Source: Dehalogenimonas etheniformans (GTDB lineage: Bacteria > Chloroflexota > Dehalococcoidia > Dehalococcoidales > Dehalococcoidaceae). From it: a DNA stretch of 64,000 nt. Position 1 is the first letter of the stretch, and each line of letters opens with the position of its first letter. Below, piece after piece: positions 51,180 through 61,628 of the stretch. The stretch is from positions 1,736,001-1,800,000 of the forward strand of contig NZ_CP058566.2 in NCBI RefSeq assembly GCF_014672715.2. The letters run 5' to 3'. The position numbers and the translations under genes were made by a program. The notes beneath the pieces were generated by a model. The model did not search any database. It was not told where the DNA came from and saw nothing but the letters and a program-made list of their open reading frames with translations.

Positions 51180-51446
51180 TTGTATGTTCCAAAAAGGCCA
51201 ACCAATAACTTAAAGAGGGGTCAATATTTAGCATTGACCACCCACATCCATTTTCACTCGTTGCGGCACAGTCATTCCACGCTTTTATTGCAAGAAGGCA
51301 TTAGCCCGAAGGTCATCTCAGAACGGCTTGGGCATGCAAACGTCAACACGACAATGAACATTTACGCTCACGTGACCCCGGGAATGCAACGGGAAGCAGT
51401 TGAAGTGTTTGACAGAATATTGGAAAACAGAATAGCAAAAGAATAG
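51180..51446 (+). pseudogene. Tyrosine integrase, C-terminal remnant
   Basis: Only the last third of a phage-type integrase is left: FHSLRHSHSTLLLQEGISPK, ISERLGHANVNTTMNIYAHV, with the H-x-x-R box, the second His and the nucleophile Tyr in place. The arm-binding and core-binding parts and the first catalytic Arg are absent. It ends 58 bp from the CCA end of tRNA-Arg, as expected for the integrase of island A. The paired repeats encode its last residues. Confidence 0.85.
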
Positions 51447-51504: not shown

Positions 51505-51581
51505 TGGTACCCCTGGGGCGATTCGAACGCCCGACACGCGGTTTAGGAAACCGCTGCTCTATCCAACTGAGCTACAGGGGC
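51505..51581 (-). tRNA. tRNA-Arg(CCU), integration target of both islands
   Basis: A 77-nt tRNA with CCA encoded at 51505-51507. The acceptor GCCCCTG/CAGGGGT pairs with one G-T, the anticodon loop is TTCCTAA (anticodon CCT) in a GCGGT/ACCGC stem, and the T stem is GGGCG/CGCCC. The 5' half (51543-51581) is repeated exactly at 60455-60493, and the 3' half nearly so at 46363-46407. The last codons of the island B integrase lie inside the gene, on the same strand. Confidence 0.96.
51543..51581. repeat. attL core of island B (39-bp direct repeat)
   Basis: From the anticodon loop (TTAGGAAACCGC) to the tRNA 5' end. Identical to 60455-60493. Confidence 0.92.
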
Positions 51582-52752
51582 TCAAAGCTAATTTTTGAAG
51601 AGTTGGCGACATTTTGGCGACAGAATTTTTTACCACACCTGCCGGGAGTACTCCATCCAATAATGCCATCGCATCTTCTTGCATACCGCTTATTATATGG
51701 GAATAGACGTCCATTGTGAAAGCAACCGAACTATGCCCCAGTGCTTCCGAGATAACTTTGGGCTTGGCGCCACGGAGAAGCATGAGTGAGCTAAAAGTAT
51801 GCCGCAAATCATGGAATCTTACGCCTTCCAACCCGGCACCTTTCACCAGCTTGGTAAAGGCATGAGTTAAACTGCACGGATCCACCGGCCGGCCTTCAAT
51901 ACCGGTAAATACCAGGGCGTCCAGCCCGAGCTTCTGTTTAAGATCCGCATAGAGCTCCTCGCGTTGCGCCCGGTAACCCCGGAGGAATATTGCCAACTTG
52001 GGAGTCATGGACACCCGGCGCCGGCTATGGGCTGTCTTGGGCTCTTTGAAAAGGCAAACACCGCGGCGCTTGTATAAGACCTGGTTGACCGATATCGATA
52101 AGAAGTCGAGGTCGAGATCTCGCCACCTGAGCCCCAGAAGTTCAGCTTGCCGGAGTCCACTACTTAAAGCCATATAGATCACCGGGTAGTAATGGCTGGA
52201 TTGAGCTGACTCAAGGAGGACTTCGACCTCACCAGGGGTCAAGGTCCGCATGGTTTTCTTCCGAGGGGCTGGTGGATCTACGAGCTCGGCCGGGTTTCTG
52301 CCGAGATAGCCTTGCCTGACAGCGTACTTGAGCGACTGGAAGAGTACCCGGTGATGATGATGGACCGTCCTCGCTGACAGGCTCTCGCAGGCCTTGCCGT
52401 AATATGCCTGGATAGACTGGGGGTGAAGCTGTTTCAACTTGATTGAGCCAAGCGCTGGAATGAGGTGAACATCGATAATCGACTGGTAGCCATCCAACGT
52501 CCGGGGCGAGCAGTTGGTTTTGACGTAGCCTTTGAGCCAGTTTTGAAAGTGATCGGCCACAGTGAGACGGCCGGACTGGGAATAGGTTCCCTTATCGAGG
52601 CTGACCAGCAGATCGTTGAGCCGACGTTGGGCATCTGAGCGGCGGCCGCGGACCGTTTCGTAATGCCGTTGACGCTTCCCACCAGGCCCTTGGCCAGTAT
52701 CCAGGATGATCTGCCAGGACTGCTTACCCTTGCTGCGGATGTAGCCTCTCAT
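51559..52752 (-). CDS. Tyrosine site-specific integrase of island B
   Basis: A 397-residue phage-type integrase with an AP2-like/arm-binding N-terminus, a core-binding domain (65-150) and a catalytic domain with R201 (SSGLRQAELLGL), H314-R317 (FHDLRHTF), H340 and the nucleophile Y350. All catalytic residues are present. The seven C-terminal residues SPCSSVG and the stop are encoded by the 5' end of tRNA-Arg on the same strand, so recombination exchanges the gene's tail. The start overlaps the upstream gene by four bases. Confidence 0.93.
   Translation of the reverse strand: MRGYIRSKGKQSWQIILDTGQGPGGKRQRHYETVRGRRSDAQRRLNDLLVSLDKGTYSQSGRLTVADHFQNWLKGYVKTNCSPRTLDGYQSIIDVHLIPALGSIKLKQLHPQSIQAYYGKACESLSARTVHHHHRVLFQSLKYAVRQGYLGRNPAELVDPPAPRKKTMRTLTPGEVEVLLESAQSSHYYPVIYMALSSGLRQAELLGLRWRDLDLDFLSISVNQVLYKRRGVCLFKEPKTAHSRRRVSMTPKLAIFLRGYRAQREELYADLKQKLGLDALVFTGIEGRPVDPCSLTHAFTKLVKGAGLEGVRFHDLRHTFSSLMLLRGAKPKVISEALGHSSVAFTMDVYSHIISGMQEDAMALLDGVLPAGVVKNSVAKMSPTLQKLALSPCSSVG
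51602..51621 (+). repeat. Paired TTGGCGAC repeat, left end of island B
   Basis: TTGGCGAC at 51603-51610 and 51614-51621, period 11. A 19/20 copy of the whole unit is at 60327-60346. Likely integrase arm sites; they lie in the 3' end of the integrase gene. Confidence 0.65.
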
Positions 52753-53702
52753 TGGTTGCCTCCGGTTGCTTGCTTTTTCGCTCGTTCTCTAGACCAAACC
52801 GTTCGCCTGTCGCAACGTGAGCAATAGCGCTGATTGCCATGTCCCCAATGTAAACTTCCGCATGCTTTACATGTCTTGATGTGTCTCTTTTTTGCTTGAT
52901 ATTCTTCTAAAGAGAGCGTCGTTAATAACCCCAATTGGTAATGACAGACATCGAAAAGGGATTTAACACTGAGATAGAACTTTGGCCCGAGAAACGTGTA
53001 GTGTAAAGAAATACCGCTGAGTTGTTGATCTAGACACATTCCAACATTCTGTCTGATCGCCTCGAGCATATTCATATTTTCTTTTTCGAGATATTTTGTT
53101 CTGAACTGGTCAGCTGTCAATGGCTTCAAGAAAAATGGGTGCGTTATTAGGAGCCAGGTAAGGTGTTTAAGCCGGTCAGTTGACTCGATGTCCGTTTTCG
53201 AAATTTCGATTTCACGTAGTAGGTCATTGATTTCAAATAAGAGATAAATAGTCGCAATACTGATCTTGAATTTTTGTAGCGGATAACCCCATAAACCATG
53301 TGTGTATGCATCCCCGCTATGTCCAGGTAATCCCCATTCCTCCAGCCATTTGACAACTCGTTTCAAAGGGATTGCACCCTTAAATGATTCTGTCCACGAA
53401 GGCGAAGTCGTCGTAAAGTCTTCCCAATTCCAAGCTACTGTCCCATCTATCACATCGATTGTTGAAACAAGCAAACGATTGTAATCATCCGGCCTTAATT
53501 GTTTGCTATACAGCCGGTCGACGCGTTTTCCGGGCCAATCCGTACTATTTTCGTCGTCGATTATATGCAGGGTACCGTTAACGCCCATCAAAGAATAAGC
53601 TTTAGCATCCAACAGATAACCGACGTTCAGATCTGAATTGATCACTTCCCCAGGAGGGAAGATGTACCGAAACTCAGACGCATTATCAGACGAATATGCC
53701 AT
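52749..53702 (-). CDS. Hypothetical island B protein with C-terminal zinc finger
   Basis: With the ATG at 53702 this is 317 residues. No catalytic motif is recognised in the body. Residues near the C-terminus read CKACGSLHWGHGNQRYCSRC, a four-Cys zinc finger similar to CGNR-type fingers, followed by a basic tail. It overlaps the integrase by four bases and is divergent from the XRE regulator. Its start codon lies inside the operator-like palindrome 53687-53715. Accessory or defence cargo is possible, but nothing in the sequence proves it. Confidence 0.65.
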   Translation of the reverse strand: MAYSSDNASEFRYIFPPGEVINSDLNVGYLLDAKAYSLMGVNGTLHIIDDENSTDWPGKRVDRLYSKQLRPDDYNRLLVSTIDVIDGTVAWNWEDFTTTSPSWTESFKGAIPLKRVVKWLEEWGLPGHSGDAYTHGLWGYPLQKFKISIATIYLLFEINDLLREIEISKTDIESTDRLKHLTWLLITHPFFLKPLTADQFRTKYLEKENMNMLEAIRQNVGMCLDQQLSGISLHYTFLGPKFYLSVKSLFDVCHYQLGLLTTLSLEEYQAKKRHIKTCKACGSLHWGHGNQRYCSRCDRRTVWSRERAKKQATGGNQ

Positions 53703-53715
53703 ATATTTTCGTCTG
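53687..53715. promoter_or_regulatory. Operator-like inverted repeat between divergent island genes
   Basis: CAGACGAA (53687-53694) and TTCGTCTG (53708-53715) are perfect inverted arms with a 13-base spacer; another AGACG half-site is seven bases left. The repeat covers the start codon of the leftward gene. A minus-strand TTGACA...TATACT (15-base spacing) lies at about 53724-53749, so a repressor here would block leftward expression. Confidence 0.6.
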
Positions 53716-53760
53716 AATAGAGTATACCCTATAAAACGAAATGTCAAGATGGAGGAAAAA

Positions 53761-53991
53761 ATGAAAAGTATCTTAAGGGAAAAAAGAGAAGCCCTTGGGA
53801 TTTCTCAGGTCAGGCTTGGGAGTTTGAGCGGATTAGCAAATAACGTAATCTCAGATTTCGAACGAGGAGCGAGGCGGCCTTGGCCTCGAGCACGGAAGGC
53901 CCTTGCCCGGGCGCTGCGCGTCCCGGAGGCCGAGCTCTTCCCTGAGGTTGGCGTGGAGGCTGGTGAGGGAGGTGTCCAGAATGGCCACTAA
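53761..53991 (+). CDS. XRE-family regulator of island B
   Basis: A 76-residue helix-turn-helix protein: SILREKREALGISQVRLGSL and SGLANNVISDFERGARRP form the HTH, with the usual Leu-rich helix after it. The ATG at 53761 has GGAGG five bases upstream; an ORF from 53638 would read through the divergent promoter. As the first rightward gene it is the likely master repressor, acting at the palindrome next to it. It overlaps the AlpA-like gene by 11 bases. Confidence 0.88.
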   Translation: MKSILREKREALGISQVRLGSLSGLANNVISDFERGARRPWPRARKALARALRVPEAELFPEVGVEAGEGGVQNGH

Positions 53992-54190
53992 GGAAAGCTC
54001 CACTAGCCTCACCATGACGATCCCCGAGTTCGCCAAGGCCGCAAACATATCTCCAGGACTGGCCTATGATCTAGCCCGGAAAGACGATCTACCGGTCAAG
54101 GTAATCCATTTTGGCCGGCGCATGCTGCTCTCCCGCCGGGCGGTCGATGAATTGCTGGGGACATCCACCCAGAACGGCGCTTTGGCTTGA
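53981..54190 (+). CDS. AlpA/excisionase-type DNA-binding protein
   Basis: A 69-residue MerR-like helix-turn-helix protein: TMTIPEFAKAANISPGLAYDL, then PVKVIHFGRRMLLSRRAVDELLG. This is the pattern of AlpA/Xis-like proteins, which in satellites and prophages activate excision or replication genes. The ATG at 53981 lies within the end of the XRE gene. Whether it acts as excisionase or activator is open. Confidence 0.82.
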   Translation: MATKESSTSLTMTIPEFAKAANISPGLAYDLARKDDLPVKVIHFGRRMLLSRRAVDELLGTSTQNGALA

Positions 54191-54230
54191 AGAAGTATTT
54201 TTCAAGAAATAATGAATAAGGACTGACAAA

Positions 54231-55001
54231 TTGGCTAGTCCCCAGCTTGAAAACGGCTTCCTCCGCATCGCTTGCGAATTGATTGAGGCAATCTCTCGCA
54301 CACGGTTTAGCCCGAGGGAGAGTCAAGTATTCTGGTCGGTTGTCCGGCGGACTTACGGATGGAATAAGAAGGCTGACCGGATCTCATATAGTCAACTCGA
54401 AGAGTCAACAGGTCTCAATAGACGCCATATCGCAGATGCGCTCTCTCGTTTGATTCGCCGGAACATCATCTCCCGCTGTGGATCAGGATACAAGCTTTCT
54501 TACGGAATCCAGAAGGATTACCAGCTTTGGATTGTTACCGATAGGGGCAATAATTCAAAGCTATCATTACCGAAGGGGGCAACAAATAGAATCATTACCG
54601 AAACCGACAAAGGTTCATTGCTCCCGGGGGCAACAAAATCATTACCGAAAAGGGAACACACAATAGATAAAAAAACATCTTCAAAAAACAACCCTCGAGA
54701 GGATTTCCAAAAGCCTGCAAAACAAGCCTTTGGCGAATTTAAAAACGTCCTCTTAACGGCCGAAGAGCGCGAGAATTTGACGGCTAAGTTGGGGTTGGCT
54801 GCCGCGGAAGCCTCCGATCTGATTGAGCGCCTCTCGGCTTACCTCGAAAACCATCCCAACAAAAAATACGCCAGCCATTACGCAACGATAAAAACGTGGG
54901 CACTTGACGATGTAAAGAAGCGGACCGCCGCGGGCCCCCGGCAGGATAGATTTACAAATCTACCTCCTGGCGCTGACTTAAAAAAATGGGAGAACGTGTA
55001 G
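54231..55001 (+). CDS. RepO-like replication initiator
   Basis: A 256-residue protein whose N-terminal 95 residues match the lambda-O-type replication domain (MASPQLENGFLRIACELIEA, RESQVFWSVVRRTYGWNKK, LNRRHIADALSRLIRRNII). The C-terminal part is hydrophilic, with a helical segment. It would bind the element origin and recruit the helicase loader encoded next. TTG start with AGGA upstream. The origin, often within the gene, may be the repeated CATTACCGA units at 54560-54650 (ATCATTACCGAAGGGGGCAA, then related copies). Confidence 0.85.
   Translation: MASPQLENGFLRIACELIEAISRTRFSPRESQVFWSVVRRTYGWNKKADRISYSQLEESTGLNRRHIADALSRLIRRNIISRCGSGYKLSYGIQKDYQLWIVTDRGNNSKLSLPKGATNRIITETDKGSLLPGATKSLPKREHTIDKKTSSKNNPREDFQKPAKQAFGEFKNVLLTAEERENLTAKLGLAAAEASDLIERLSAYLENHPNKKYASHYATIKTWALDDVKKRTAAGPRQDRFTNLPPGADLKKWENV
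54562..54651 (+). repeat. Iteron-like repeats inside repO, candidate origin
   Basis: Short repeats with ATCATTACCGAAA/G and GGGGGCAACAAA occur three times between about 54562 and 54651. Lambda-type elements keep their replication origin as iterons inside the O gene, so these are origin candidates. Copies are imperfect and were aligned by eye. Confidence 0.5.
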
Positions 55002-55718
55002 ATGGAACAGAATTTTTTAGAAAAAGCAGCTGAAAACTTGGGCAAACTCAAACCTACCGCGACCTGTGAAACATGCGGAGCCACAGCTTATAGCGGTGCC
55101 GAGCTCGAACATGAGCCGCGCTGCCTGAAGGACCGCGAAAATTGGATGCGCCGGGTGATCTCCTTTTCACAACTCCCGGCTAACAAACCACGGACCTTTG
55201 ATGGTTTCAAGAAAATTGATGGTACTGCAAAAGCTCTCGCCGCGGCTAAGTTGTACTGTGATCCGGCACAGCGCCGGCATCCATTCCTGACATTTATCGG
55301 TCCTCCTGGGGTCGGCAAGACCCATCTGGCCCAAGCGATCGGTTGGTGGTGGGCTGAGAGTTTGAAGTTCAATTTTCGTTATGTCCAAGCCGAGAAGATG
55401 CTGGACCAACTCCGACGATGTTTCGACCGGCGAAGCGACAGTCCGGAGGATGATTTTGATACTCAACTCAATTTCCTCTGTAAGGTTCCGCTCCTCATCT
55501 TAGATGATCTAGGCACCGAATCATCGAGCGACTGGTCCAGGGCGAAACTGCAATCGGTCATCGACGACCGTTATGAGAACGGGCGATTGACCGTTGTGAC
55601 CACTAACGACCCAGCAAAAATACCTTCGCGCGTTCTCTCAAGGTTAAGAGAGGGCGTAATTGTTGCCATTGATGCGCAGGATTACCGATTAACAATAGCA
55701 TCAGAAAGATCAGTGTAA
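55002..55718 (+). CDS. DnaC-like helicase loader ATPase
   Basis: A 238-residue AAA+ protein of the DnaC/IstB type. An N-terminal zinc motif (CETCGATAYSGAELEHEPRC) is followed by Walker A GPPGVGKTHLAQA at about 103-115, Walker B VPLLILDDLGTE and a sensor region VVTTNDP. It starts directly after repO, and the pair is the standard phage replication module that loads host DnaB. Confidence 0.88.
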   Translation: MEQNFLEKAAENLGKLKPTATCETCGATAYSGAELEHEPRCLKDRENWMRRVISFSQLPANKPRTFDGFKKIDGTAKALAAAKLYCDPAQRRHPFLTFIGPPGVGKTHLAQAIGWWWAESLKFNFRYVQAEKMLDQLRRCFDRRSDSPEDDFDTQLNFLCKVPLLILDDLGTESSSDWSRAKLQSVIDDRYENGRLTVVTTNDPAKIPSRVLSRLREGVIVAIDAQDYRLTIASERSV

Positions 55719-55741
55719 TCACTCAAGAGGCTGGTGGAGTA

Positions 55742-56887
55742 ATGCCGATTGCAACCGAGAAAGACCTGCCGCGCCGGGATATGGAAATGATAGCGAACTC
55801 CGGGGCCGTCTGTGGCACATGCGGCGCCGTGCTGACGGTGGCATGGGGTGGAGAACTCGGCTGGATCCTCCGCTGTGGCCGCAGCCTGGAGCACAATACC
55901 ATGCGGCGGCTCAGTGCCAAATCATCAAAAGAACTCGAGGGCGAGAAAGTTTACAGGAGAATGAAGATGCAAGGAACCGAACTCACCACCATATCACCCG
56001 AGAAGATGTTGGCCGAGCGCATGCCGGCAGCCATGTTTCCCCAGTCTATGTCCATGGAACAGCGCCTTTTCATTGCCAAGATCGCCGTGAGCTACGGCCT
56101 GGACCCGATGATGAATGAGCTGACCGTCTACCAGGGGCAGCCGTTCGTCAGCCTGGCGGCTCGACTCAGGAAGGCTCAGGAGACCGAGCAGCTTGATGGC
56201 GTGGACATGCGCCCGGCTACCACTGAGGAAAAGACCGGTCGCGGCCTTGAGGCTGGTGATTACCTCTTTATGGCTGAGGTGTGGCGCAAAGGCAGCTCCC
56301 GGCCGTTCATGGGCTGGGGGACTGTCAAGAAAGCGGAGATCGATCGCGCGGTAGGGAACGCCCGGAGCAATAACCGCGATCCGTTCTTCCTTCCCCTGGT
56401 TAAGGATCCGGCTTCGATGGCCGAGAAACGAGCAATAGCGAAAGGCCTCAAACTGGCTTTCCACCTGCCGCTACCTTCCGTCGAGGACATCGGCGGCGAA
56501 GATCCTCTCATGCCTGACTCTTCCCCAGTCCCTCCGGCGGTTCCGGTATCTCGTGCCAATACTCACCCCCAGTCTATTCCCAGCAACACGCCCCCAGCCT
56601 GTTCGGTGATCATCGACCAGTCTCCCGCTGAGGGAATGGTGCAACCTTCTGAAAATCCTGAGCGTGCGGCCACCAGGCCCTCAGCCAAGCCCACCAGGGA
56701 CCCGGCCAGCATAAAGATCTTGGCCGACTGCTGGAAGGCCTGCCATGAGGACTTCGGGCTTCAACCAAAGGATTGCTTGAGAGAGCTGGGAGCATCCAAC
56801 CAGGCCGATATCGTTACTACCCCTTCCGAGTGCTACCTGGTTTTGAAGAAACTGAGGGAGGACCAGGGAAGGGGTGGAGGCGGGTAA
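55742..56887 (+). CDS. RecT-like single-strand annealing protein (probable)
   Basis: A 381-residue protein. An N-terminal CGTC ... C element is followed by a region (about 75-250) with the RecT/Bet layout: KIAVSYGLDPMMNELTVYQG, the central RLRKAQETEQLDG, and DPASMAEKRAIAKGLKLAF near the end. The C-terminal third is Pro-rich with a helical end domain. Phages use such proteins to anneal single strands during recombination. The family match is by pattern only; a nuclease partner is not seen. Confidence 0.65.
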   Translation: MPIATEKDLPRRDMEMIANSGAVCGTCGAVLTVAWGGELGWILRCGRSLEHNTMRRLSAKSSKELEGEKVYRRMKMQGTELTTISPEKMLAERMPAAMFPQSMSMEQRLFIAKIAVSYGLDPMMNELTVYQGQPFVSLAARLRKAQETEQLDGVDMRPATTEEKTGRGLEAGDYLFMAEVWRKGSSRPFMGWGTVKKAEIDRAVGNARSNNRDPFFLPLVKDPASMAEKRAIAKGLKLAFHLPLPSVEDIGGEDPLMPDSSPVPPAVPVSRANTHPQSIPSNTPPACSVIIDQSPAEGMVQPSENPERAATRPSAKPTRDPASIKILADCWKACHEDFGLQPKDCLRELGASNQADIVTTPSECYLVLKKLREDQGRGGGG

Positions 56888-56968
56888 ATTCTTCGGAGCA
56901 AACGTTTTTCCAAACCGTTTGCCCAACTACGCGCACAAAATCGCAGTTGAGATGAAAGGGGATTAAAA

Positions 56969-57451
56969 ATGCCGAATCATAAAAAACCTACCGCCATGCG
57001 CCGCTTGGAGGGCAATCCAGGGAAGCGTCCTTACAACGAGAATGAACCTCAGATCTCGGCCTCCCAGCCCTCTTGTCCCTCCCACCTCACCAGCCCAGCC
57101 CGGAGAGAATGGCAGCGGATCGTGCCGATCCTGGCCCGGGTAGGCGTTCTGACTGAGATCGACCGGGCGGCACTGGCCGCCTATTGCCAGGCATACGGTC
57201 GTTGGGTTGAAGCGGAGAGGCTAGTGAAAAAAGAGGGGATGGTGAAAGAAACTGCCAATGGATATCCGATAATCTCGCCTTACTTGGCCATTGTTAACAA
57301 AGCCCTAGAGCAAATGCACAAGTACCTGGTGGAGTTCGGGTTGACTCCTTCCAGCCGGTCCAAGGTCAGCGCGGTCCCCATGGTAAAAGAAGAGGATCCG
57401 CTTGAGACGTTGATGCGCGAGGCCGAGGAGAGGGCTGGTATAACAGGTTGA
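56969..57451 (+). CDS. Phage terminase small subunit, P27 type
   Basis: A 160-residue small terminase. The start with RRLEGNPGKRPYNENEP is diagnostic for the P27/Terminase_4 family; helices typical of DNA-binding TerS follow (LTEIDRAALAAYCQAYGRW). In a complete phage the large subunit gene comes next; here only a 70-residue protein and a terminator follow. A lone TerS is a hallmark of satellites that redirect a helper's packaging. The ATG follows AAAGGGGATTAAA. Confidence 0.92.
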   Translation: MPNHKKPTAMRRLEGNPGKRPYNENEPQISASQPSCPSHLTSPARREWQRIVPILARVGVLTEIDRAALAAYCQAYGRWVEAERLVKKEGMVKETANGYPIISPYLAIVNKALEQMHKYLVEFGLTPSSRSKVSAVPMVKEEDPLETLMREAEERAGITG

Positions 57452-57660
57452 AGCGGCCGGTGAGCCTATACGAATGTTCCAATGCGATCGTCCAGGGCGA
57501 TGTTATCAAATGCATCGCTGGCCATCATCTCGCCCGAAATGGGGAAGTCTGGGCAGACCGGCTGCAATCCGGGGAGGAGCTGGTATTTCAGGTCTGCCAG
57601 AATTGTAAGGACCTTGACCGGGCTGGCCGGCCGGTACCGGAAAAAGAAAGAGGCTGGTGA
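57448..57660 (+). CDS. Small CxxC protein after terS
   Basis: A 70-residue protein starting TTG at 57448 within the terS stop. It contains VIKCIAGHHLARNGEVWAD and VCQNCKDLD, possibly one zinc site made of separated Cys and His. It ends at a strong terminator. Function unknown; translational coupling to terS suggests a role in the same process. Confidence 0.6.
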   Translation: MKRPVSLYECSNAIVQGDVIKCIAGHHLARNGEVWADRLQSGEELVFQVCQNCKDLDRAGRPVPEKERGW

Positions 57661-57679
57661 CGATTACACCAGCCTCTTT
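57650..57679 (+). terminator. Intrinsic terminator of the rightward operon
   Basis: A 10-bp stem GAGGCTGGTG/CACCAGCCTC with loop ACGATTA, then TTTCT. It overlaps the stop of the preceding gene. Confidence 0.88.
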
Positions 57680-57860
57680 CTACAATGCACTTGAACTTAT
57701 ACCCCCCTTTGCTAATTTCCCAGACAGAAAAATCTAGCTGTCAATCCGCTTTAAACCGAACGCTTTTAGAGTTTTGATGAGGCTTATCCCCTTTGTATAT
57801 CCGGACAACCAGGAGATGCAATTTTCGCCTCCCGGTTGTGATAATTGCCCATTTTAACGC

Positions 57861-58397
57861 TCATTTTCCTGTGATTTGCACGCAGTTTTGAGCCTTCACC
57901 AGCCCCGCTCCAGCTTTGAGCTTACCGGCTATGATAGTCTTTAGGTCATTCGTAATCGGGTCAGTTGGCGGGATAAACCCATTGAGGATCATATCCGCGG
58001 CGATCTTCGCGAAAGACTGCAGCTCTATGCTGGCTCTTTCCTCCGGGGAGCTGCCGCGGGCCCACCCGCCCTTACCCTTGCTGCCATCTTTTACCGGTTG
58101 GCCATCGTCGTAGAGTTGAATCACCTTGCGGTGAGGGTATTCCTGGCCGCCGGCCGTGACGAACTTGGAAAATTCTACATCAGCGTCGAGCTCGGCGCCG
58201 TCTTTGATGTGCTCGAACAAGGCTTTAGCTGTGCATTCAAAAGGAGACTGGGGGCGGCTCTGCACACCAGCCATTACGGCTGTGAATTCGACTTTTGGCA
58301 CGGCGCCGTTCTGCCCCTGGAAGGTCTTATCGACTGGTGAACCTACCACCAGGAGCTTGAGCCGTTTTACTTGTTTTTCTAATGTCTGGGCTGCCAT
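57861..58397 (-). CDS. Hypothetical phage-type protein
   Basis: With the ATG at 58397 (GGAGGACAATC upstream) this is 178 residues. Alternating strands (VKRLKLLVVGS, PKVEFTAVMAGV, HRKVIQLYDDG) suggest a beta-rich, possibly OB-type fold as in single-strand-binding proteins, but no motif proves it. It is the last gene of the minus-strand block. Confidence 0.6.
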   Translation of the reverse strand: MAAQTLEKQVKRLKLLVVGSPVDKTFQGQNGAVPKVEFTAVMAGVQSRPQSPFECTAKALFEHIKDGAELDADVEFSKFVTAGGQEYPHRKVIQLYDDGQPVKDGSKGKGGWARGSSPEERASIELQSFAKIAADMILNGFIPPTDPITNDLKTIIAGKLKAGAGLVKAQNCVQITGK

Positions 58398-58410
58398 GAT
58401 TGTCCTCCTC

Positions 58411-59139
58411 TTATTTTGTTGTGACCCTGATCGTTTCTTCCTGCCAGGCCTTAATACCCGGAACGCCGCCACCAGCCTCAATTACCTTGCGGATCCTGCC
58501 AGCATCGAGCACCTTGAACTGCTCGGGGACCTGCGCCTGGTCGACGCATTCCCACTTCCAGATCTTCGATGTACCGGCTGTCCCCAGGCTGCCACGGACG
58601 TTTTTGGCGACGAAAGGGACTGGTAATTGAGAGACCGATTCGGAGATCTCCCCAGTCCCCGAAAGCTCGGCCTCACGCCGGGCGGCCTCTTCCCTGAGCC
58701 GGTTGATCTCCTCTATCTCCCGGCGTTTTCGCTCTTCTTCCTGATGGTAAGCCAACAGCTTCTGCCGGTTTATCAGATCGGCGGCTTCAAACGGGGCCAG
58801 AAGTCCTTTGACAGTCTCCCGGACCGCTTTCAGGTGGGCATTGATAGGGTCGGTGTACTCTTTGCCCTTCTCTTCGACAGCCTTCTTAAACTTGGCGATC
58901 ACGGCCAGATCGTCGGCAGCATCCTTGGCGGATTCCTGGCTGGCGATGATGCGGCCTGTGGCCAGGTTGTTAAGGCAGACGCCTTGGCTGAAAAGATCGC
59001 GGAGTACAGCATCAGCGTCCGGCGATACCCTAATGAGTGCCGTTATCGGCTCCCCAGCCTCTCCCCTCAGTTCAACCGGAGGCTGGGGACTCTGGCGATC
59101 CTCCTCCCAGGGCATTGGGTTATTGATGTTTAGTGTCAT
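58411..59139 (-). CDS. Coiled-coil phage protein
   Basis: A 242-residue protein with a central coiled coil (about 85-165, Glu/Lys/Arg-rich, ending REEAARREAELSG) and a C-terminal part KIWKWECVDQAQVPEQF ... VPGIKAWQEETIRV. This arrangement is seen in early-region phage proteins found beside single-strand-binding proteins and exonucleases (DUF1351-like). ATG 59139 has AGGAGG eight bases upstream. Role in DNA metabolism inferred. Confidence 0.7.
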   Translation of the reverse strand: MTLNINNPMPWEEDRQSPQPPVELRGEAGEPITALIRVSPDADAVLRDLFSQGVCLNNLATGRIIASQESAKDAADDLAVIAKFKKAVEEKGKEYTDPINAHLKAVRETVKGLLAPFEAADLINRQKLLAYHQEEERKRREIEEINRLREEAARREAELSGTGEISESVSQLPVPFVAKNVRGSLGTAGTSKIWKWECVDQAQVPEQFKVLDAGRIRKVIEAGGGVPGIKAWQEETIRVTTK

Positions 59140-59179
59140 GGTTGTTGTTCCTCCTTGATATTTTTCGAAAAATAATCTG

Positions 59180-59446
59180 CTAGCTTGGCCGTGCCGCTTC
59201 GAAACCCATGGAGAAGACGCAAGCCTGATGCTGCAGCTCATCATCTTCACCAAGTACGAAAGTGGCTGGTGAGGTCTTGAGATAGTTGACGATGTATTCC
59301 CTGGTGGCCACCCGGATCTCCCCAGTCAATTCGAGATTGTCGAGGATGCTTTCGATCGTTTTGTCAGTCTCCCCTTCCTGTTCTCTCCAGCAAATGGTAT
59401 AGGCGCCGTGGGGGCCGATGAATTCATGGATCTTGGTAACAGCCAT
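59180..59446 (-). CDS. Hypothetical island B protein (88 aa)
   Basis: An 88-residue acidic protein (MAVTKIHEFIGPHGAYTICW start). No family recognised. AGGGAGAAAC is upstream of the ATG. It is part of the minus-strand block read from the promoter at 59730-59758. Confidence 0.6.
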   Translation of the reverse strand: MAVTKIHEFIGPHGAYTICWREQEGETDKTIESILDNLELTGEIRVATREYIVNYLKTSPATFVLGEDDELQHQACVFSMGFEAARPS

Positions 59447-59489
59447 TTTTTGTTTCTCCCTTTCGTTTATTCTCCATGCTGGAAGAGAT

Positions 59490-59699
59490 CTACTCTCCCA
59501 GCATCATGGCCAGTTTCAGGGCTTCGACCGCTTCCCTGGAGGCTTCAAGCCGGGCATCGATGCAGCCCTGGCACTCAAAGACCGGCACGTAACCTTGGCC
59601 GCCGATGTATTCGAAATATCCAACCAGGTCTGTCCCGGTATGGCCGCATTCGCAGCAGCTCTGGAGTTCCTTTGTCTCAGTGATCGTCATGGTGGTCAT
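59490..59699 (-). CDS. Small zinc-ribbon protein of island B
   Basis: A 69-residue protein with CCECGHTGTDLVGY and CQGCIDAR, a two-CxxC zinc ribbon followed by a helix (EASREAVEALKLAM). First gene of the minus-strand block, starting AAGGGAACAAGAAAATG. Function unknown; small ribbon proteins often act as anti-repressors or inhibitors in phages. Confidence 0.65.
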   Translation of the reverse strand: MTTMTITETKELQSCCECGHTGTDLVGYFEYIGGQGYVPVFECQGCIDARLEASREAVEALKLAMMLGE

Positions 59700-59721
59700 T
59701 TTCTTGTTCCCTTCTTTATTT

Positions 59722-59806
59722 CTACCAGTATTCTACCATTATTATAGTAGTATGTCAATAGGTTTTTAAAATATTTTTTGTAGATTGTATTTACTTTACT
59801 GGTAGT
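59722..59806. promoter_or_regulatory. Inverted CTACCAGTA/TACTGGTAG pair in a divergent control region
   Basis: CTACCAGTA at 59722-59730 and TACTGGTAG at 59798-59806 are exact inverted copies 67 bp apart. They flank the minus-strand promoter and precede the XRE gene. Candidate operators for that regulator, with possible looping. Confidence 0.5.
59730..59758 (-). promoter_or_regulatory. Strong sigma-70 promoter of the minus-strand block
   Basis: TTGACA (plus 59753-59758), 17-base spacer, TAGAAT (plus 59730-59735). Close to consensus. It overlaps the CTACCAGTA element at its -10, so a repressor there would shut it. Confidence 0.85.
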
Positions 59807-59839
59807 TAGTGCTAACATCTGGCTTGAAGGAGAACGGAC

Positions 59840-60058
59840 ATGAAATTAAGAGAAGCAAGAGCTAATGCCTTAATGACAGCCCAGAGTTTGGCTGATAAGG
59901 GGGAGGTATCCGTGGCAACCATCAACAAAATCGAGCAGGGGGCCTGGTTACCATCCCTAAAGACAGTGAAGAAGCTGGCCGACGTCCTGGGGATTAAGCC
60001 TGGTGACGTCGAAGAATTCCAGGCCGCGATCAATAAAGCGGCTGGGAAGGGTAAGTAA
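59840..60058 (+). CDS. Second XRE regulator of island B
   Basis: A 72-residue helix-turn-helix protein: LREARANALMTAQSLADKGE, then VSVATINKIEQGAWLPSLK, then VKKLADVLGIKPGDVEEF. Standard single-domain XRE. It is preceded by AAGGAGAACGGAC and shares a control region with the strong minus-strand promoter, so it probably represses that block. The stop and the next ATG overlap (TAATG). Confidence 0.88.
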   Translation: MKLREARANALMTAQSLADKGEVSVATINKIEQGAWLPSLKTVKKLADVLGIKPGDVEEFQAAINKAAGKGK

Positions 60059-60288
60059 TGTACGGGCAGCCCAAGAATCCACGCCGCCAGGCTGCCGGCG
60101 CCAAAGGAGGACGAAAGGTCGTTGAGATCTTTGGCGTCGAACATATGCGTGAGATCGGGCGCAAAGGCGGGCGTCCCCGGCTGCCAACGCTCGAAGAAAT
60201 GAGGGCTAAGAACCCTCCACCTCAGCCTGCTTCCGGCAGCCTACGCGATCTCAAGAAATGGTTCCGGGAAACCTTCGGGAAGAAATAA
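60058..60288 (+). CDS. KGG-motif protein
   Basis: A 76-residue basic protein with repeated KGG elements (RQAAGAKGGRKV, REIGRKGGRPRL) as in stress-induced KGG-repeat proteins, then a Pro-rich linker and a short helix WFRETFGKK. KGG proteins are nucleic-acid-associated in other bacteria. Coupled to the XRE gene; last gene before the right end. Confidence 0.65.
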   Translation: MYGQPKNPRRQAAGAKGGRKVVEIFGVEHMREIGRKGGRPRLPTLEEMRAKNPPPQPASGSLRDLKKWFRETFGKK

Positions 60289-60326
60289 CCCAACTGGATG
60301 CTCCATGTACGGAACAATCGCATAAA

Positions 60327-60346
60327 GTTGGCGACAATTTGGCGAC
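60327..60346 (+). repeat. Paired TTGGCGAC repeat, right end of island B
   Basis: GTTGGCGACAATTTGGCGAC, one mismatch from 51602-51621, same period and orientation. Confidence 0.65.
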
Positions 60347-60359
60347 GAAGTAAAAGCAA

Positions 60360-60383
60360 GAGGCGGCAACCAGCCGCCTCTTT
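60360..60383 (+). terminator. Intrinsic terminator of the xre-KGG pair
   Basis: Stem GAGGCGGC (60360-60367), loop AACCA, GCCGCCTC (60373-60380), then TTTAGCTTT. Confidence 0.75.
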
Positions 60384-60423
60384 AGCTTTGTGGAGATAAT
60401 CTAAAAACCTGTCAACCAAACGT

Positions 60424-60451
60424 TAGGCGAGGCCTTGATAAGCCTCGCCTA
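60424..60451. repeat. Perfect 10-bp hairpin next to attR
   Basis: TAGGCGAGGC (60424-60433), loop CTTGATAA, GCCTCGCCTA (60442-60451). No T-tract on either side. It starts 4 bp from the tRNA 5' half; transcripts from the displaced promoter would pass through it. Confidence 0.7.
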
Positions 60452-60454
60452 GAA

Positions 60455-60493
60455 TTAGGAAACCGCTGCTCTATCCAACTGAGCTACAGGGGC
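60455..60493 (-). repeat. attR core: displaced native 5' half of tRNA-Arg
   Basis: Exact copy of 51543-51581, from the tRNA 5' end through the anticodon loop. No 3' half follows, so it cannot give a complete tRNA. Confidence 0.92.
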
Positions 60494-60503
60494 ATAATTT
60501 ACG

Positions 60504-60533
60504 ATTATATCAATAAACTGGTGCGCCTGTGAA
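60504..60533 (-). promoter_or_regulatory. Displaced native tRNA-Arg promoter
   Basis: On the minus strand TTCACA (plus 60528-60533), an 18-base spacer, TATAAT (plus 60504-60509), about ten bases upstream of the tRNA 5' half. Placement and spacing fit a tRNA promoter. It is now about 9 kb from the intact tRNA. Confidence 0.75.
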
Positions 60534-60623: not shown

Positions 60624-61628
60624 TTATTTGGCCTTTTTTGATTGGGTCGCGGCTAAGACCGCAATTTGCTGCCTGTTTTTCAATTCGAGTTTTTGAAGGA
60701 TGTTTTTTACGTGTACCTTAACTGTGTGTTCGGATATGAACAATTTGCTGGCAAGCTCTTTGTTCGTTGCCCCTTGTGAGACTAATTCGGCAATCTCTAA
60801 TTCTCGCTTAGACAAAATAGAAGCAATAACTGAGATCGGCTCGGGCTGGTCCGGCTCGTTAACAGGCACAGGGGTTTGGTGCTGGAGAAAATCAACAGAA
60901 GTTTTGACCGCCTCCGGACTATCGATAAACCTTGTTACAACCTCCTTAATAAAACGGCTATTGGGAATGATCACCAAATTGCCTTCAGGGGTCAATACCT
61001 CAATATTCTGCCAATTCAATTTAGAAATGATGCCCTGCAACCCATTTTGAAGCTTAATCGATTCCCCAACCCCGATGTGTTTCCACATCGCCAATTGTAA
61101 GGCTGCCGCGTAATCAGGACCTGTGTCCCTGAGAGCCAATAACAAAAGAACTGTGAGCCCTGCAATAAAGATCAACAACGGACTTGTTTCAGCACCCCAT
61201 ACCAAGAGCAACACCAAGACTGTGAGTACCAAAACTATGATCACTAACGAGACCTGAATCGCTCTCGTGGCGCCGGGAAGGTTCAATCGCTGACCATAAA
61301 AACTCGCCAGGCTCTGAAGAATATTGAGCAACGTAAGCATTACCGCGAGTATCGCAAACGATAAAAGCGCATTCGGCGGTGCATATCCCCATCCTCCCGA
61401 CCAGGGAGCGGCTAACAAACCGGCGTGGGCACTTATCAAAAGTAGAAAGACAATCGCCGACCGCTTGATTCCGGAATAGAGACTGGAGAATACCGGATGG
61501 TTGTGCTTTTTGGTCCAGGACTCGATTTTATCAAGAGCAAATCTTAAAAGCAGCCACAGAATCACGGCGCTAAAGATGAAAACAGCGACGGGCACGACCA
61601 AGTTGACCAAAAATCGAATCAAAGCCAA
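60624..61628 (-). CDS. MscS-like channel fused to a LuxR-type DNA-binding domain
   Basis: A 334-residue protein with an unusual layout. About five N-terminal helices (to about 170) lead into an MscS beta-domain at 186-230, whose VGESIKLQNGLQGII and GNLVIIPNSRFIKEVV match mechanosensitive channels. A Pro-rich linker then joins a complete LuxR/NarL helix-turn-helix at 272-327 (LSKRELEIAELVSQGATNKE, HTVKVHVKNILQKL). A membrane-bound regulator responding to membrane state is inferred. The channel part may still conduct. The frame is continuous and the junction is not at a repeat, so a chimera by assembly error is unlikely. Confidence 0.88.
   Translation of the reverse strand: MALIRFLVNLVVPVAVFIFSAVILWLLLRFALDKIESWTKKHNHPVFSSLYSGIKRSAIVFLLLISAHAGLLAAPWSGGWGYAPPNALLSFAILAVMLTLLNILQSLASFYGQRLNLPGATRAIQVSLVIIVLVLTVLVLLLVWGAETSPLLIFIAGLTVLLLLALRDTGPDYAAALQLAMWKHIGVGESIKLQNGLQGIISKLNWQNIEVLTPEGNLVIIPNSRFIKEVVTRFIDSPEAVKTSVDFLQHQTPVPVNEPDQPEPISVIASILSKRELEIAELVSQGATNKELASKLFISEHTVKVHVKNILQKLELKNRQQIAVLAATQSKKAK

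Follow-up and report, generated by a model that had tools for sequence, protein, structure and literature searches.

A putative phage satellite with a lone P27 small terminase at tRNA-Arg(CCT) of Dehalogenimonas etheniformans

The island and its insertion site

Dehalogenimonas etheniformans possesses a compact genomic island at its tRNA-Arg(CCT) gene, enclosed by two exact direct repeats of 39 bp that are spaced 8,912 bp apart (Table 1). The island lies in a 64-kb stretch of DNA (C1:1736001-1800000; hereafter the window) of a genome consisting of a single contig of 2,068,322 bp; one circular chromosome of 2,068,322 bp is described for "Candidatus Dehalogenimonas etheniformans" GP (PMC7729418; this and the other articles cited here were available in part, and statements based on them refer to those parts). 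The repeats, already proposed as attachment (att) sites in an initial annotation of this DNA, proved to be the sole direct repeat longer than 19 nt within 48-64 kb of the window. The left copy coincides with the 5' half of a tRNA-Arg(CCT) gene that is intact. In a congener (genome G005; here and below, G, C and L numbers denote genomes, contigs and loci of our scans), tRNA-Arg(CCT) is uninterrupted and identical to the window tRNA at 75 of 77 positions, i.e., the site is empty, and its upstream DNA can be aligned with the right flank in the window, beginning at the repeat itself. Because of this exact repeat and the uninterrupted tRNA gene of the congener, whose upstream DNA continues as the right flank of the window, the island is a precise, clean insertion of 8,912 bp, and a chance repeat is ruled out.

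The att repeat is located on the 5' side of the tRNA instead of the usual 3' side. As the repeat spans the 5' half of the tRNA, the insertion severs the gene from its promoter. The native promoter, which the congener shares, is found ~10 bp beyond attR, and a candidate second promoter is present ~110 bp before the repaired tRNA, within the 3' end of the integrase gene (int). These two are among the only five promoter-like sites with 11/12 or better matches in the 64-kb window (both strands). Note that the candidate substitute overlaps codons that we take to be near the integrase active site, and the match is therefore perhaps coincidental. The hairpin just inside attR would come after int in the excised circle. 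Furthermore, a second tyrosine integrase is preserved as a C-terminal remnant (51180-51446; 40-56% identical to integrases of related islands) on the 3' side of tRNA-Arg(CCT), and this tRNA gene is thus targeted from both sides.

Island open reading frames (ORFs) were searched against Pfam, PHROG and NCBIfam profiles, and eight proteins were analyzed with PADLOC. The integrase, the replication genes repO and dnaC and the small terminase gene (terS) of the P27 family, all named in the initial annotation, gave strong profile matches. Its AlpA-like and RecT-like proteins were recovered as well, in both cases with weak values and below the Pfam cut-off, and its divergent repressor was not confirmed: the gene divergent from the first Xre-type regulator encodes an unclassified 317-residue Cys4 protein with no recognized repressor family. 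This gene overlaps int by ATGA (52749-52752) and occupies the position of iolg in PICMI satellites and of stl in Staphylococcus aureus pathogenicity islands (SaPIs). Its Cys4 end matched a plasmid protein in Sutcliffiella (41% over 60 residues), a match with no clear bearing here; AlphaFold models of this protein (332-residue reading) and of orf10 (206-residue reading) were unusable (mean predicted local distance difference test scores of 36.6 and 33.9, respectively). In its right third, the island contains four genes in leftward orientation and another Xre gene, all beyond what had been listed before.

There are exactly three copies of TCATTACCGAA in the 64-kb window, all of them in repO. Repeats inside the initiator gene are the expected layout of a lambda-type origin. 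The rightward operon is closed by a hairpin after terS-orf9, where a phage would run on into the large terminase subunit. The main ORFs are open, and no truncated gene was recognized in the island. In agreement with the initial annotation, profile searches revealed no large terminase, portal, capsid, virion or lysis family for any island ORF searched. The same searches detected no relaxase, mobilisation or competence family, and PADLOC recognized no defence gene among the eight proteins.

Table 1. Features of the island and of its insertion site (window coordinates)
Feature	Position	Strand	Evidence or remark
tRNA-Arg(CCT)	51505..51581	-	intact at attL; 5' half supplied by island
attL core, 39 bp, tRNA 5' half	51543..51581	.	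direct-repeat search
int, tyrosine integrase; stop codon inside att core	51559..52752	-	PHROG integrase 8.6e-74
candidate replacement tRNA promoter TTCACA-17-TATAAT, inside int 3' end	51692..51720	-	consensus match only
317-aa protein, C-terminal Cys4 motif, overlaps int by ATGA	52749..53702	-	no family; length from ATG
Xre-type regulator heading rightward operon	53749..53991	+	HTH_3 8.6e-9
AlpA/excisionase-like small helix-turn-helix (HTH) protein	53981..54190	+	HTH_17 4.3e-5, below cut-off; PHROG excisionase/regulator 0.007
RepO, lambda O-like replication initiator	54231..55001	+	Phage_rep_O Pfam 5.2e-23; phage_O_Nterm above cut-off
three TCATTACCGAA repeats within repO, candidate lambda-like origin	54564..54649	+	repeat search
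DnaC-like helicase loader	55002..55718	+	PHROG 2.2e-43
RecT/Bet-like annealing protein, weak call	55742..56887	+	PHROG Bet-like 7e-5; Pfam RecT 9.5e-4, below cut-off
terS, terminase small subunit, P27 family	56969..57451	+	Pfam 2.1e-32; PHROG 2.7e-53; NCBIfam sm_term_P27 2.9e-27, above cut-off
orf9, 70 aa, overlaps terminase stop	57448..57660	+	no family
intrinsic-terminator-like hairpin, 15 perfect pairs, at orf9 end	57645..57681	+	-26.7 kcal/mol, z -9.6
orf10	57861..58397	-	no family
orf11, phage recombination-module protein	58411..59139	-	PHROG_10477 exonuclease 1.9e-13; relatives in L318, L319
orf12	59180..59446	-	no family
orf13, small Cys-rich protein	59490..59699	-	no family
promoter-like site TTGACA-17-TAGAAT ahead of orf13-orf10	59730..59758	-	consensus scan
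second Xre-type regulator	59840..60058	+	HTH_3 6.5e-12
orf15, small protein, relatives in phages/islands of family and order	60058..60288	+	relative searches
terminator-like hairpin, just inside attR	60424..60451	-	hairpin search
attR core, identical 39 bp, orphaned tRNA 5' half	60455..60493	.	direct-repeat search
native tRNA promoter TTCACA-18-TATAAT, now separated from tRNA	60504..60533	-	same site in congener's empty locus

Lone P27 small terminases and relatives of the island genes

The initial annotation proposed a search for a helper prophage with a P27-type large terminase. In the complete own genome, neither the large terminase PF03354 nor the portal PF04860 was found (the latter is present in 3 of 11 family genomes), and there is therefore no resident helper prophage of the P27 type. 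The capsid family PF05065 gave one weak match in this genome (3.4e-11; C1:1959976-1960527, ~160 kb past the island). Similar PF05065/HK97-fold matches of ~310 residues are present in 7 of 8 Dehalogenimonas genomes, and this conserved gene of the genus perhaps encodes an encapsulin-type protein. The P27 small terminase of the island is the only one in the genome; none of the seven congeners searched has one, and 2 of 11 family genomes matched. P27-type phages do occur in Chloroflexota, e.g., as a Dehalococcoidaceae prophage in G001 (L054) and in L147.

Scans with a terminase alignment yielded 80 genome loci and 80 viral loci with P27 small terminases. According to a hand count, 52 of the genome loci and 7 of the viral loci have no large-terminase partner by profile, many of these loci being cut by contig ends. 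When at least 6 kb of downstream DNA was required, a portal or capsid was present in none of 41 lone-terminase loci, as compared to 66 of 70 large-terminase loci (Fisher p 3e-26); 65 of these 70 possessed portal and capsid together and four had neither, and neither was seen in L046 and L058. When at least 8 kb of upstream DNA was required, 23 of 30 lone-terminase loci and 4 of 46 large-terminase loci contained an integrase or recombinase (Fisher p 1e-9); of 19 lone loci whose upstream flanks were short, 11 had no integrase. Six duplicate loci were left out of both counts and short-flank loci were set apart (for portal and capsid: 40 large-terminase, 8 lone and 21 edge loci). Note that the p-values are nominal, as the loci are in part related to one another and themselves served to build the profiles for large terminase, portal and capsid. 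A terminase tree of the 173 of 184 rows with at least 125 residues (the short duplicate loci L001-L040, except nine, and L077-L097 were left out) required 21 changes of the lone label, as compared to 44.4 in shuffles, i.e., lone terminases cluster. This comparison supports a satellite-like reading of the island; it also covers the capsid module that had been considered as possibly present elsewhere in the element family, and that was absent from all 41 loci. In loci L116-L187, many of them alphaproteobacterial, the P27 small terminases are lone and often doubled in tandem, and in several cases an integrase follows 0.6-2 kb downstream; the alphaproteobacterial lone-terminase loci probably form an unnamed satellite group.

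In uncultured Dehalococcoidia, the lone-terminase islands L044, L045, L049 and L041 resemble our island in the combination of an integrase or recombinase with a P27 small terminase and in the lack of any large terminase, portal or capsid match in the locus; L044 has an AlpA-like gene as well. In L044, L045 and L049, int is near tRNA-Lys, tRNA-Tyr and tRNA-Leu, respectively. However, L044, L045 and L041 have primase-type replication, the terminases of all four islands are placed elsewhere in the terminase tree, and the cargo differs (ParB-methylase and RAMA/DUF2924-like genes in L045, DISARM-like genes in L041). No usable att repeats were found in L044, L045, L046, L048 and L049, and those islands were not delimited. 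A search for the large terminase in 20 chosen genomes matched eight of them, and none of the lone-terminase genomes G059, G202 and G207.

As regards the modules, relatives were found class-wide for the terminase in 19 (own genome included), for RepO in 8 and for the RecT-like protein in 6 of 393 genomes, the latter mostly via the C-terminal segment only; within the order, 10 of 156 genomes have RepO relatives. Scans gave no confirmed relative of the RecT-like gene (viral and genome collections) or of the integrase (viral contigs), and a phage collection contained none of the RecT-like gene, orf10 or orf11. L102 from the same order has a similar arrangement: int is overlapped by another gene via ATGA, an AlpA-like gene and the beginning of repO are present as well, and tRNA-Arg(CCT) is 1.5 kb from int; L100 has int, AlpA and RepO. 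Both loci are cut by contig ends, beyond which terS may follow. Judging from coordinates, the arrangement of int and the overlapping gene is also present in L315.

The contig G489:C79 of the same order carries an intact-looking phage or prophage with relatives of orf15, orf11, the C-terminal segment of the RecT-like protein and RepO, and it continues after RepO with small and large terminase, portal, protease, capsid and tail genes (late genes named from their translations, without family search). Since relatives of orf15, orf11 and RepO are carried by G489:C79, the early genes of the island have a local phage ancestry. Plain deletion of the G489 phage was considered as the origin and rejected: its small terminase has no P27 profile match, orf11 is forward and before RepO there and leftward and at the far end in the island, i.e., inverted and moved, and the right operon of the island is hairpin-closed. 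Old derivation from an unseen phage is possible.

Satellite, cryptic prophage or another mobile element

We regard the island as an integrated, phage-derived satellite of unusual type, similar to phage-inducible chromosomal islands (PICIs), with a probability of about 0.6. Features of satellites in the broad sense are present, as the element is integrated, has no virion genes and carries a packaging function (terS). The plan known for Gram-positive PICIs and SaPIs (int, divergent regulator, replication genes, terS, no virion or lysis genes; PMC6092414) is largely found here: int and a same-strand gene are divergent from a rightward operon with a regulator, an excision-like gene, replication genes and then terS, which only some PICI members possess; the gene at the position of stl could not be assigned to any family. 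However, Gram-positive PICIs use Pri-Rep with an origin just 3' of it and are ~15 kb long, whereas the 8.9-kb island has lambda O and DnaC with repeats inside the initiator gene and lacks a recognized capsid-size or interference gene; PICIs have genes of their own, whereas RepO, orf11 and orf15 have relatives in an intact-looking phage. Gram-negative PICIs (EcCICFT073 type) share the AlpA-like gene before the replication genes, and some carry terS, but they are unidirectional and use Pri-Rep (PMC6092414), in contrast to the leftward int and the leftward orf10-13 block found here. A further PICI criterion is an att site never used by prophages; near tRNA-Arg(CCT), related integrases are found in L102 and as the remnant in the window.

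The PICMI satellites of Vibrionaceae possess an int-overlapping gene (iolg, overlapping by ATGA and required for excision), an AlpA-like gene (weak here) and a small size as well (PMC10803314). They have a primase (DUF3987/DUF5906) and the fis site, whereas the island has no primase and is inserted at tRNA-Arg; terS is not among the genes named for the six-gene prototype PICMI (PMC10803314). Capsid-forming PICIs carry their own capsid genes, none of which was found here, and candidate PICIs of Mycobacterium, defined by a capsid gene, are the opposite of the island (PMC10654092). Because of the differences in Pri-Rep, size and unique genes from PICIs and in primase and site from PICMI, the element, mixed in type, fits no named satellite family tested and should be filed neither as PICI nor as PICMI. 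The PICI-like satellite of the initial annotation holds for the anatomy, and the strict label is weakened by the replication type, the phage-shared genes and the position of the terminase in the tree.

The main rival is a cryptic prophage, i.e., a lambda-like temperate phage of Dehalococcoidales that has lost its late and part of its early region, has kept early genes and terS by chance and can no longer be transferred. Satellites arising from defective prophages are discussed (PMC11389934), and several observations that weigh against the satellite fit this explanation. Relatives of RepO, DnaC, orf11 and orf15 sit in phage-like loci of the order, the early genes matching phages such as that of G489:C79, and the window terminase groups, weakly (support 89, not starred), with the large-subunit loci L195, L202 and L042 and the lone locus L141; the expected grouping with the lone terminases of Dehalococcoidia was not obtained, the tree placing it outside the lone clades. 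Other results weigh against the satellite: scans of viral and genome collections revealed no whole-element relative, and of the common core that the initial annotation proposed to look for in related genomes only modules recur; the AlpA-like and RecT-like assignments are weak, and lambda-O/DnaC replication in place of Pri-Rep is not that of a strict PICI. Nevertheless, we consider a cryptic prophage less likely than a satellite. Its hallmarks (broken genes, a residual late module) are not seen, the right operon is closed by the hairpin at its terS-orf9 end, and the G489 phage differs in its small terminase and in the position and orientation of orf11. An intact or related prophage at the site, which would have indicated a simple deletion derivative, was sought and not found, the site being empty in G005, and the perfect att repeats argue for a recent insertion.

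Two further explanations appear much less probable. The island could be an integrative element whose movement depends on natural transformation, conjugation or general transduction, with terS as a DNA-binding protein kept for another purpose. Indeed, the islands L313, L314 and L316 of the family have an AlpA-like gene and a related integrase and no P27 terminase by profile, and integrase-AlpA islands therefore need not be satellites. However, relaxase, mobilisation and competence families are missing from the ORFs searched, and without packaging it would be hard to account for a P27 terminase that is full-length and lies in a terminated operon. Least probable is a young phage whose virion module hides in unassigned ORFs: orf9, orf10, orf12, orf13 and the 317-aa protein have no family, and the structures predicted for orf10 and the 317-aa protein are too poor for use, but at ~2.2 kb in total they would be too small for portal, capsid and tail.

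Proposed cycle, significance and neighbouring observations

The sequence itself shows the insertion with its repair of the tRNA, the genes present, the closure of the operon and the lack of virion genes; for the satellite, we infer a helper phage and every dynamic step of the following cycle. The island would remain silent in tRNA-Arg(CCT) until a helper infects or is induced. The AlpA-like protein and the integrase, perhaps together with the product of the int-overlapping gene, would then excise it, RepO would bind the repeats in its own gene and, with the DnaC-like protein, load the host helicase, and the RecT-like protein may join the copies into concatemers. The small terminase would mark island DNA and recruit a P27/HK97-type large terminase of the helper, resulting in packaging into helper particles. 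In a new cell, reinsertion at the 5' half of tRNA-Arg would restore the tRNA, and the int end would supply the substitute promoter.

A search of one literature collection revealed, among the papers listed, no phage satellite described in Chloroflexota. The novelty for this lineage proposed in the initial annotation is consistent with this result, but it is qualified by the related lone-terminase loci in uncultured Dehalococcoidia. According to the terminase comparison, a lone P27 small terminase may be the mark of a wide range of compact integrase islands, found in Chloroflexota, Alphaproteobacteria and other phyla, and such islands are searchable by a simple rule. As a tentative proposal, which we hold with less confidence than the satellite nature of the element, the island may be the first example from a cultured member of Chloroflexota of widespread, unclassified satellites (integrase plus lone P27 small terminase) that would recruit an HK97/P27-type large terminase, with a replication module from local phages and a mirrored tRNA strategy (entry at the 5' half, with an own promoter). 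The 5'-side insertion raises the separate question of what transcribes the repaired tRNA.

The movement of DNA between Dehalococcoidaceae is an unresolved question that bears on these bioremediation bacteria. For the vinyl chloride reductase islands, both conjugation-like transfer and phage packaging were considered (PMC3146451). The ssrA islands of Dehalococcoides and Dehalogenimonas are likewise site-specific and occur in the same bacterial family, but they are located at ssrA, many of them contain reductive dehalogenase genes, and no terminase is named for them (PMC3146451, PMC13390414); the available part of PMC13390414 mentions neither prophage nor integrase nor satellite. If our reading is true, a satellite in a cultured strain makes phage-borne transfer in Dehalococcoidaceae directly testable.

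Several other loci deserve mention. L041 (G252:C5, 4320-19045) contains a D5-type primase, the lone P27 terS and three DISARM-like genes (NERD-helicase, MZB, helicase); according to its translations it has a serine recombinase and interrupts a comM-like gene behind its first part. The far half of comM was sought in L109 and not found. L041 is possibly a satellite carrying a defence system. L046 (G091:C20, 8345-17271) encodes int, AlpA, a primase and small and large terminase, with no portal or capsid profile match. In G118, the end of L059 and the start of L102 share the same 141 nt of repO at two contig ends, probably because an identical replication segment in both elements gave rise to an assembly junction, and the element therefore cannot be followed in that genome. 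A different island of G005 (L316, 3468-10876) has two AlpA-like genes, a related integrase beside tRNA-Met and, judging from its translation, a DnaB-like helicase. Finally, a gene at 60624-61628 of the window encodes a membrane protein in which an MscS-like domain is fused to a LuxR-type HTH; in the nine remaining genomes of the 11 from the family, matches were confined to the HTH part, whereas G005 has a copy with 78% identity and the own genome a paralogue with 39% identity at 720362.

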